The position numbers and the translations under genes are program-made. Positions 28,268 to 36,344 of a stretch of 39,364 bases of DNA are shown in pieces. The stretch covers positions 1 through 39,364 of the IMG/VR virus record IMGVR_UViG_3300046507_000175. One strand, 5' to 3'. The notes under the pieces were generated by a model that saw nothing but the letters and a program-made list of their open reading frames with translations, was not told the DNA's origin and ran no database searches. The DNA is from a virus. Every line of letters starts with the position of its first letter. Position 1 is the stretch's first letter.

Positions 28268-28402
28268 TCAGACCCAGATCCCGCCGCCGATATGGCGCTG
28301 TGTGAAGGTGCGATACCCGTTGCCAACCCAGCAGCGCAGATCGCGCCATTCGTTTCCGTCTTGTCCGATCCACGTTGCGATCACTTCGTCTTTGCGGTTC
28401 AT
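28268..28402 (-). CDS. 44-aa first gene of the leftward operon
   Basis: ATG 28402, with GAGGT eight bases upstream, about 41 bases after the predicted PL start. Sequence MNRKDEVIATWIGQDGNEWR, ending RHIGGGIWV. It occupies the place of N in lambdoid phages but lacks the arginine-rich N-terminus of known N proteins. Function unknown. Confidence 0.6.
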   Translation of the reverse strand: MNRKDEVIATWIGQDGNEWRDLRCWVGNGYRTFTQRHIGGGIWV

Positions 28403-28449
28403 CTCAGTTACCTCGAATCAGTGTTGGTTTCGGGTGGTGCATGAGTAAG

Positions 28450-28478
28450 ATAATAGGAAAACTCGTTGAACTTGGCAA
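28450..28478 (-). promoter_or_regulatory. PL early leftward promoter
   Basis: Read leftward: TTGCCA (28478-28473), 17-bp spacer, TATTAT (28455-28450). The spacer contains the operator AACGAGTTTTCCT. Predicted start near 28443. It drives the recombination and accessory operon down to 19924. Confidence 0.85.
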
Positions 28479-28492
28479 TAGGAAAACTCGTA
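28455..28492. promoter_or_regulatory. OL operators, two sites 25 bp apart
   Basis: AGGAAAACTCGTT at 28455-28467 and AGGAAAACTCGTA at 28480-28492. Both are preceded by AAT. The first lies inside the PL spacer; the second just upstream of the -35. A weaker AGGAAAGCAAG occurs at 28532. The same sequence, inverted, makes up the right operators. Confidence 0.85.
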
Positions 28493-28535
28493 TCTACGAG
28501 TAAAATTTTGCTATTGGATTAATAGTGCGATAGGA

Positions 28536-28563
28536 AAGCAAGAAACCCGACAAATTATCGGGC
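28536..28563 (-). terminator. Terminator of the repressor transcript
   Basis: Read leftward: CCCGA (28562-28558), 7-base loop, TCGGG (28550-28546), then TTTCTTGC. It would stop the lysogenic transcript before it enters PL. The stem is short, so efficiency is uncertain. Confidence 0.5.
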
Positions 28564-28645
28564 GTCTTGCAGATGAGCGTGTGGGTGTGGGGAGCCGGGA
28601 GGAGGTGGGAGCGCTAGGTGTTCTGCGCAGGCCCCGAATTTTGTA

Positions 28646-28825
28646 TTAGATTGCTTCGATGCTGGTGAGGCGTTGCGCCACCGCCAGACAGTACGACAGT
28701 TGCTTCAAACGGTCCTTCAGTGCTTCACAGTTCCGGCAGCTCGGAACCTCGCAATCGTTTGCATCTGGAGGCTGCAAAAAGGAGGGAACCTCAATTCCCT
28801 CGTCTGTGTTGTTGGTCAAATCCAT
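28646..28825 (-). CDS. Small Cys-containing gene downstream of the repressor (rex position)
   Basis: 59 aa from ATG 28825, about 104 bp after the repressor stop, same strand. GGGGTG lies ten bases upstream. Acidic N-terminus MDLTNNTDEGIEVPSFLQPP, then CEVPSCRNCEALKDRLKQL, whose Cys spacing could bind zinc, followed by a helix. Being in the repressor transcript it should be made in lysogens, as lambda rexAB are. No similarity to Rex is seen; an exclusion role is inference. Confidence 0.55.
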   Translation of the reverse strand: MDLTNNTDEGIEVPSFLQPPDANDCEVPSCRNCEALKDRLKQLSYCLAVAQRLTSIEAI

Positions 28826-28928
28826 GGTTTCAAACACCCCGCGATGAAAGGGAAAAATTGCCTGGCACGGCCCTGTGCCAGTCAAATATTCATCCTACAA
28901 ACCAGTATTTGAAAGATGGGGTAAATAC

Positions 28929-29333
28929 TTACAAATTTTTGCCGTTATTCGGGGTTGGCCCTTTGTTTGCGCGTTGCTGCCTAGCCATCTCTTCGGCGAT
29001 TGCCTGCTGGATGAATTCTTTCGTTTCCGGCGACACGCCGTAATCTCTATTACGGTCCTGATCGCAATTCCGGTACAGCTCGCGCACCTGATCGGCCAGT
29101 ACGGGGCTGATGTCGTCGATCTTGACCCCCAGCACCTTGGCGAACTGACCGACGGCATACAGGTTCAGTTTGGCCTTTCCCTTCAGGTACAGATTCACGT
29201 TCCCCTGAGTGCCCATGTCGTACTCGACGCCGAACTTCTCCTGCGTCATTCCTTCCGGGCGCTTCTCACTCCATAGGCGGTCTAGACGCTTAGCGTCGTC
29301 TATCTGCCATTGCGTTAGTTTCTGTTTGACCAT
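28929..29333 (-). CDS. CI-like repressor without peptidase domain
   Basis: 134 aa. Helix-turn-helix of the Cro/C1 type at about residues 25-75: MTQEKFGVEYDMGTQGNVNL followed by YLKGKAKLNLYAVGQFAKVL. The second half is helical and charged, perhaps for dimerisation. There is no LexA/CI-type S24 autocleavage domain (no Ala-Gly cleavage site, no Ser/Lys dyad). Transcription is leftward from a PRM-like promoter whose start coincides with ATG 29333; no Shine-Dalgarno is present. It is the best candidate for binding the AACGAGTTTTCCT operators and maintaining lysogeny. Confidence 0.75.
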   Translation of the reverse strand: MVKQKLTQWQIDDAKRLDRLWSEKRPEGMTQEKFGVEYDMGTQGNVNLYLKGKAKLNLYAVGQFAKVLGVKIDDISPVLADQVRELYRNCDQDRNRDYGVSPETKEFIQQAIAEEMARQQRANKGPTPNNGKNL

Positions 29334-29339
29334 GGCTGA

Positions 29340-29367
29340 ACTATAGATTTCCTAGTGATAGCCGCAA
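29340..29367 (-). promoter_or_regulatory. PRM-like repressor promoter, leaderless
   Basis: Read leftward: weak -35 TTGCGG (29367-29362), 16-bp spacer, TATAGT (29345-29340). Six bases later comes the A of the repressor ATG (29333), the expected +1. The poor -35 abutting an operator is typical of an activator-dependent PRM. Confidence 0.65.
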
Positions 29368-29403
29368 CGAGTTTTCCTGTTGACAAACAGAATGAGTTTT
29401 CCT
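29341..29403. promoter_or_regulatory. OR operators, three sites phased at 25 bp
   Basis: CTATAGATTTCCT (29341-29353), AACGAGTTTTCCT (29366-29378) and AATGAGTTTTCCT (29391-29403) start exactly 25 bp apart. The third lies in the PR spacer, the second upstream of both -35 boxes, and the first, the weakest match, over the PRM -10. This corresponds in function to OR1, OR2 and OR3. Confidence 0.8.
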
Positions 29404-29408
29404 AGTAT
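29380..29408 (+). promoter_or_regulatory. PR early rightward promoter, leaderless
   Basis: TTGACA (29380-29385), 17-bp spacer, TAGTAT (29403-29408). The predicted +1 (29415/29416) falls on the ATG of the Cro-like gene. The apparent longer ORF beginning TTG at 29380 is the -35 box. Confidence 0.85.
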
Positions 29409-29415
29409 GTTCACT

Positions 29416-29739
29416 ATGAAACTCGCCGACTACCTCGCCAAGCACTCCATCAGCCAAATCGCGCTGGCCCATCGCCTCGGTGTGAGTCAGGGCCGCGTGT
29501 GGCAGTGGCTCAATGGAGAAAAGGTTACTCCGAAGTATTGCCCGGAGATCGAAAAGTGGAGCAATCGCGAAGTCACCTGCGAAGAACTCAACGATTCGGT
29601 CAACTGGAAATACGTTCGCGAGTCCGCCCAATCGATCGCAGATAGCGACATCGTCGAGCGCGCCAAGGCATCGGATGACGCTCAACCGCCTGTCGGCGGA
29701 ACAAATCGAAAGCGCAAAGAAGCCCGCATCACGGGCTAA
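29416..29739 (+). CDS. Cro/YdaS-like helix-turn-helix regulator
   Basis: 107 aa from ATG 29416. MKLADYLAKHSISQIALAHR, then LGVSQGRVWQWLNGEKVTPK, is a YdaS/Cro-family helix-turn-helix. It is followed by PEIEKWSNREVTCEEL, as usual in this family, and a disordered basic C-terminus (GGTNRKRKEARITG). It is the first rightward gene, divergent from the repressor, and should compete for the same operators to favour lysis. No ribosome site precedes the start, which fits a leaderless transcript from PR. A terminator follows. Confidence 0.85.
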   Translation: MKLADYLAKHSISQIALAHRLGVSQGRVWQWLNGEKVTPKYCPEIEKWSNREVTCEELNDSVNWKYVRESAQSIADSDIVERAKASDDAQPPVGGTNRKRKEARITG

Positions 29740-29864: not shown

Positions 29865-30236
29865 ATGGCATCTCCGAATATCAAAGGTAATCAGATGCAA
29901 CTCGACTTTGAACCGGGCCTCGTTGAGCGCTACGGCAGCCTGAAGGATTGCGTAGCTACTGGCGTCTACCAGCGCGGCCTGAAGCGCATAGCGATCGATC
30001 TCGATCAAGCTCCCAGCAATCTCAGCGTGCAGCTCTCAGAAGACGGTTCCCGGCATTTCTCCATCGACTCGTTCGAAAAGTACCTGGAGAAGACCGGCGA
30101 CATGTCTCCCATCTATTACCTGATCGAGAAGTTCCTGGCCGACAAGGCGAACGGTAAGGCCGCGGCACTGGAGCAGATCCAAGCGCTCGGCCCGCAGATG
30201 ATCGAGCTTCTGCGCAAGGCAGGTATTGCCGCATGA
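29865..30236 (+). CDS. CII-like / Phage_CP76-type regulator
   Basis: 123 aa. ATG 29865 (GGGG upstream) or ATG 29895 (MQLDFEPGLVERYG, with AGGT upstream) may be the start. The sequence DCVATGVYQRGLKRIAIDLD, then QAPSNLSVQLSEDGSRHFSI and EKYLEKTGDMSPIYYLIEKF, follows the layout of CII-type regulators of P2/186-like and Burkholderia prophages: a helix-turn-helix that reads an operator and a helical tail. Its position after tR1 matches cII. It would promote repressor or integrase synthesis at the lysogeny decision; that role is inferred. Confidence 0.65.
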   Translation: MASPNIKGNQMQLDFEPGLVERYGSLKDCVATGVYQRGLKRIAIDLDQAPSNLSVQLSEDGSRHFSIDSFEKYLEKTGDMSPIYYLIEKFLADKANGKAAALEQIQALGPQMIELLRKAGIAA

Positions 30237-36038: not shown

Positions 36039-36344
36039 ATGGAATCGCTTAAAGATTGTCAATTCGATTTAGGTATGGCACTTCACTTCCTGAAGGCGGG
36101 CGGGCGTATTTGCCGCGCTGGATGGAATGGCAAAGGCATGTTCGTCTATCTCGTTCCGGCTGCTTCATATCCGGTTCAAACGGGTGCAGCGAAAGCGCAC
36201 TTCGGCGAAGGATCGATGGTGCCGTATAACGCATACCTCGCGCTCAAAGGCGCTGACAATACAGTCAGCACATGGGCGCCGAGCGTAAGTGATTGTCTCG
36301 CGGAAGACTGGTTCTTAGTTCCCGTTGATGGAGAGAAGCAATGA
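36039..36344 (+). CDS. DUF2829 / Tad2-like anti-Thoeris protein
   Basis: 101 aa from ATG 36039 (GGAG upstream). FDLGMALHFLKAGGRICRAG, then WNGKGMFVYLVPA, YNAYLALKGADNTVSTWAPS and DCLAEDWFLV, carry the DUF2829 signature (GWNGKGM, W..S..D.LAEDW). Tad2 proteins of this family form tetramers that sequester the cyclic ADP-ribose-type signal made by the Thoeris TIR sensor, which blocks abortive infection; some also bind cyclic dinucleotides. It sits in an accessory slot between the early terminator and terminase, a usual place for anti-defence genes. Family call firm, function by homology. Confidence 0.82.
   Translation: MESLKDCQFDLGMALHFLKAGGRICRAGWNGKGMFVYLVPAASYPVQTGAAKAHFGEGSMVPYNAYLALKGADNTVSTWAPSVSDCLAEDWFLVPVDGEKQ

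Follow-up and report, generated by a model that had tools for sequence, protein, structure and literature searches.

The two clusters of short repeats that flank the repressor operon of this phage are best read as an operator pair of the lambda OL/OR type, as their sequence supports. Very probably they form a lambdoid set at which a repressor dimer would shut PL and PR and may aid PRM, and whose sites a Cro protein would read as well.

Phage record and immunity region

The DNA analyzed, hereafter the window, is the IMG/VR virus record IMGVR_UViG_3300046507_000175 (39,364 bases). It encodes portal, coat, terminase, integrase, Erf, NinB, CII-like, O-like and P-like proteins, a gene set that identifies a temperate lambdoid phage. 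The nearest bacterial locus belongs to a Burkholderiales metagenome-assembled genome, and the host is a Burkholderiales-type bacterium. A DNA search of phage records with the immunity region returned no match. Reading leftward from PR, the PR/OR/PRM region is followed by the gene for a 134-aa repressor, a 59-aa ORF, a terminator-like hairpin and PL/OL (Table 1), and the CII-, O- and P-like genes are located downstream of cro. Pfam revealed no antirepressor gene among the early ORFs scanned, which make up part of the ORFs. Elsewhere, the window encodes a Tad2-like (anti-Thoeris) domain protein (PF11195, 77 bits; 36039-36344, plus strand) and a RecA-dependent nuclease-like protein (PF16786; 32750-33145, plus strand).

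Table 1. Features of the immunity region, in window coordinates
Feature	Positions	Strand	Description	Basis
PL	28450-28478	-	-35 TTGCCA (28473-28478), 17-bp spacer, -10 TATTAT (28450-28455)	
OL1	28451-28467	-	AACGAGTTTTCCTATTA; 17-bp frame, overlaps PL -10 by 5 bp	
OL2	28476-28492	-	TACGAGTTTTCCTATTG; overlaps PL -35 by 3 bp, as lambda OL2	
Inverted repeat	28511-28533	-	CTATCG-N11-CAATAG, upstream of OL2	conserved
Terminator-like hairpin	28545-28563	-	end of repressor operon, just upstream of PL	
59-aa ORF	28646-28825	-	in repressor operon, between repressor and PL	
Repressor	28929-29333	-	134 aa, CI-like; lambda CI DNA-binding domain, without peptidase domain	
Putative PRM	29340-29367	-	-35 TTGCGG (29362-29367), 16-bp spacer, -10 TATAGT (29340-29345)	sequence and relatives
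OR3 (candidate)	29341-29357	+	CTATAGATTTCCTAGTG; divergent, over PRM -10	
OR2	29366-29382	+	AACGAGTTTTCCTGTTG; overlaps PR -35 by 3 bp and PRM -35 by 2 bp	
PR	29380-29408	+	-35 TTGACA (29380-29385), 17-bp spacer, -10 TAGTAT (29403-29408)	
OR1	29391-29407	+	AATGAGTTTTCCTAGTA; fills PR spacer, overlaps -10 by 5 bp	
Cro	29416-29739	+	107 aa, YdaS-type (PF15943); ATG 7 nt after PR -10	
CII-like activator	29865-30236	+	phrog_101	

Repeated sites at PL and PR

The 13-mer AACGAGTTTTCCT occurs exactly at 28455-28467 (minus strand) and 29366-29378 (plus strand), and with one mismatch at 28480-28492 (minus) and 29391-29403 (plus); no other position in the window matches it at zero or one mismatch. Within each pair the step is exactly 25 bp, at PL on the minus strand and at PR on the plus strand, and all four main sites share one orientation relative to transcription. 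The 10-mer GAGTTTTCCT is the sole 10-mer of the window with two separate short tandem pairs, a pattern that appeared in none of 300 dinucleotide shuffles of the window. In a matrix scan, with a matrix trained partly on the four main sites themselves, these sites scored 26-30 bits, the next window match 11.3 bits and the shuffled maxima 9-18 bits. The same scan detected no third site of this motif in the left cluster and, apart from those at the promoters, no other strong site anywhere in the window. The third right-hand site at 29341, CTATAGATTTCCT, matches AACGAGTTTTCCT at only 8 of 13 bases; its position and its conservation in relatives support it as a real, though divergent and weak, OR3. 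An earlier note on this DNA had counted the 13-bp sequence or close variants twice at the left and three times at the right, with neighbouring sites 25 bp apart. The four near-identical sites and their exact spacing stand, and the third right-hand site is no close variant. As a general signal across IMG/VR, a 25-bp period was rejected, given that tandem AGTTTTCCT pairs showed no general peak at 25; all 25-bp AGTTTTCCT pairs among the records listed came from this phage family, so the motif is family-specific.

Promoter and operator geometry

A consensus promoter scan of positions 28300-29500 returned two matches only, PL and PR, and missed the putative PRM. The PL and PR spacers are 17 bp in the window, in its relatives and in lambda. 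When the sites were taken as 17-mers and compared with the annotated lambda operators, the centre of OL2 and OR2 was located 6 bp before the -35 box, with a 3-bp overlap, both at lambda PR and PL and in all relatives compared. For OL1 and OR1 the centre lies 4 bp ahead of the -10 box and the overlap is 5 bases, against 5 bp and 4 bases in lambda, and this 1-bp shift at the -10 box accounts for the step of 25 instead of 24 (lambda OL1-OL2 24, OR1-OR2 24, OR2-OR3 23). The step thus follows from each site being tied to a promoter hexamer with a 17-bp spacer, and no separate ruler is involved. In the related lineage L017 the PRM spacer is 18 bp rather than 16 and the OR2-OR3 distance 27 bp rather than 25; since both shift, it is the PRM -10 box, not a 25-bp ruler, that sets the place of OR3. 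The 25-bp phase of the earlier note therefore holds for both main pairs, but not as a free-standing period. Its other geometric proposals agree with what we found: one copy sits at the end of the 17-bp spacer in both PL and PR, with OL1 and OR1 reaching into the -10 box, and the likeness to OR1-OR3 of lambda is upheld by the base-pair geometry against annotated lambda operators, by the CI-like repressor and by the clusters kept in relatives. OR2 is centred at about -41 of PRM.

The repressor ATG lies 6 nt past the PRM -10 box and the cro ATG 7 nt past that of PR (window 29333 and 29416), so both messages are probably leaderless. The two divergent genes begin 6-7 nt past their -10 boxes in L016, L017, L018, L019 and L142 as well, and in YdaS-type phages further removed cro also looks leaderless. 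Upstream of cro, L018-L026 contain different sites, GCATTTGC/GCAAATGC, whose placement relative to the -35 and -10 boxes is by eye the same. The distant YdaS-type phages L018-L019 encode a full-length CI of 267-269 aa.

Repressor and Cro

Over 86 residues the repressor shares 36% identity with the DNA-binding domain of lambda CI (E 5e-15), a profile search agrees, and Foldseek ranks N-terminal domain structures of lambda CI highest for its model (mean pLDDT 75, good over residues 11-80). The N-terminal five-helix DNA-binding domain of the lambda CI family is present, while the C-terminal S24/LexA-type peptidase domain is absent from the repressor and its relatives, and about 45 low-confidence residues stand where the cooperativity domain of lambda would be. 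The length is 134 aa in L014, L016 and L017 as well, and 123 aa in L142. On our analysis the protein is one that would work like CI yet is not a full-length CI. In the phage records, no described phage had this repressor at more than ~40% identity, and a literature query on Burkholderia operators gave no paper on it.

Cro, the first gene of PR and divergent from the repressor, matches PF15943 with 64 bits (cut-off 30). Its structure matches are the YdaS structures of CP-933P, it is 36% identical to Rac YdaS, and it has no detectable similarity to lambda Cro. The switch is thus a mosaic of regulators, in which a repressor domain of lambda type is set against a YdaS-type Cro. The C-terminal tail of Cro, ASDDAQPPVG (window 29670-29705), is common to proteins with very different DNA-binding halves (L018-L037). 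What is conserved is the peptide, as the underlying DNA varies at synonymous sites; this variation rules out nutR-like boxA/boxB elements hidden in the tail.

Lambda CI contacts the operator A at position 2 through Gln33 and Gln44. The aligned residues of the repressor, Q31 and Q43, are invariant, and the second base is A in both halves of all 16 main sites. Both proteins, the repressor (Q31/Q43) and Cro (Q14/Q25), have one Gln close to the beginning of helix 2 and another close to that of helix 3.

Upstream of OL2 lies an inverted repeat, also present in L014 (3097-3120), L016 (3087-3110), L017 (3132-3155) and L142 (3809-3832), with the consensus CTATCR-N11/12-YRATAG across lineages. It begins 59-60 bp from the start of OL1 in five of five lineages despite diverged flanks, against a chance expectation of 0.05 per window. 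An RNA stem is unlikely, as its pairs are broken in the window and in L016. The neighbouring 59-aa ORF contains a conserved C-x2-C ... RL-x2-LSYCLAVA pattern, is present in all lineages and gave no family match.

The repeated sites could belong to the repressor only, with Cro acting elsewhere, for example at this inverted repeat, which sits at a nearly fixed distance from PL. L016 fits such a division: there the left half of all four sites has C/TAAG instead of CGAG, and repressor helix 3 changes with it (TQGNVN to SQANVG), with the Cro recognition helix VSQGRVWQW unchanged. L142, however, mixes both operator variants with an unchanged TQGNVN helix, so covariation gives no proof of which protein binds. 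Two further points speak against separate sites: the Gln pair of the repressor is also found in Cro, and in CP-933P the footprints of PaaR2 overlap those of YdaS. We consider this division unlikely.

Symmetry of the sites

Across the 16 main sites of four lineages ten columns are invariant. About an odd 17-bp centre, complementarity holds for three of the four invariant column pairs (positions A2, A5 and G6 in both halves), which gives a symmetric core A-N2-AG-N5-CT-N2-T; every other centre yields at most two such pairs, and the even 16-bp frame AACGAG-N4-CCTATT yields one. OR3 keeps the core except for the left-half A2 in all four lineages. Each site contains 3-4 symmetric base pairs of 8, compared to 4-6 for the lambda operators by the same counting, with lambda sequences consistent with the lambda record used for the geometry. 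A plain identity-based scan gave no single best centre, so the odd 17-bp frame is suggestive, rather than proven, as the true frame. The sites had been described in the earlier note as only weakly palindromic and unusual in this respect. Their symmetry is indeed below that of lambda, but the apparent asymmetry probably arises mainly from reading them in the even frame, and the odd frame has a symmetric core.

Four main sites that point the same way, are weakly symmetric and span ~13 bp could also suggest asymmetric operators to which repressor monomers bind in a single orientation, as with the 13-bp stoperators of cluster A mycobacteriophages, and one-orientation sites do exist in L5-like phages. 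Cluster A stoperators are many one-orientation sites away from promoters; the window, in contrast, has no more than four or five, each of them at a promoter, and no further strong ones. Together with invariant columns that pair symmetrically about one odd centre and a repressor with a dimer-type lambda CI domain, this makes monomer binding very improbable.

Conservation in related phages

Close relatives, whose repressor is 96% identical, keep the four sites with both 25-bp steps, and in three other lineages, with repressors 80, 78 and 70% identical and Cro ~73-76% identical where measured, the four sites, the steps and both promoters are all retained. These elements were found in L014, L016, L017 and L142. 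Mean pairwise identity among the window, L016, L017 and L142 is 0.89 for the OL sites and 0.92 for the OR sites, against 0.39 for both flanks. Loss of the 13-mer and its 25-bp step in related phages had been set beforehand as one refuting outcome, and both are conserved while the flanks diverged. Although every site overlaps a -35 or -10 box, it is extremely improbable that the repeats are promoter sequence conserved for RNA polymerase and no operators, because the site parts outside the hexamers are as conserved (0.87 for OL, 0.92 for OR) as the hexamers themselves (0.89-0.96), unlike the flanks, and OR3 keeps its core on the opposite side of PRM.

Comparison with known switches and proposed mechanism

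Lambda and this phage share two clusters flanking the repressor operon, with repeated 17-bp sites at PL and PR, site 1 over the 17-bp spacer and the -10 box, site 2 overlapping the -35 box by 3 bp at both promoters, a repressor message that here too is probably leaderless and a related repressor DNA-binding domain (36% identical). The window is no full copy of lambda. It has a step of 25 instead of 24, another half-site sequence, three right-hand sites (the third divergent) and two left-hand sites where lambda has three per cluster, a repressor without the peptidase/cooperativity domain and a Cro that is no lambda Cro.

The closest studied system is PaaR2-YdaS-YdaT of CP-933P from E. coli O157:H7, which likewise has a YdaS-type Cro, a short repressor free of the peptidase motif and, as is probable here, a leaderless repressor gene. 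There YdaS is a demonstrated Cro that shares operators with PaaR2, the footprints of the two proteins overlap at PRM, PR and PL, YdaS acts first on PRM, and paaR2 is leaderless (PMC8630535). Its PL carries similar operators, and the repeats are partly asymmetric, as here (PMC8630535). CP-933P differs in its operator sequences and in having ParE/PaaA genes in place of the 59-aa Cys-containing ORF. PaaR2, without a peptidase motif, is unreactive to mitomycin C (PMC8630535), and this caveat about inducibility should apply to the present phage too. The RacR-YdaS-YdaT module of Rac also sets a YdaS-type Cro (36%) against a short repressor (158 aa), but no kinship of the present repressor to RacR was detected; RacR works with four inverted repeats and assembles into octamers (PMC11014345).

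For the lambda-type reading we take binding, order of binding and activation from lambda and CP-933P. A dimer of the 134-aa repressor would bind the 17-bp pseudo-palindromes OL1 and OL2 and OR1 and OR2, cover the -35 and -10 boxes and switch off PL and PR; at OR2 it would be placed to help its own transcription, as in lambda. The YdaS-type Cro would read the same sites, lower PRM activity via OR3 and, once more abundant, that of PL and PR as well.

Tentatively, a peptidase-free CI domain and a YdaS-type Cro might share operators of lambda geometry in a switch that has no RecA-cleavage trigger and takes a third input, for example the 59-aa protein or a factor bound to the inverted repeat. The phage adds a clean new case to a known type of switch; less usual are the regulator mosaic, the 59-aa ORF conserved across lineages and the inverted repeat whose distance from PL hardly varies. 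Its repressor is a small natural example of DNA binding and induction uncoupled from the peptidase domain. The promoter-operator geometry of lambda persists in phages of another bacterial order and, since operator sequence, Cro family and the C-terminal half of the repressor have all been exchanged, geometry and not sequence is the conserved part of the switch.
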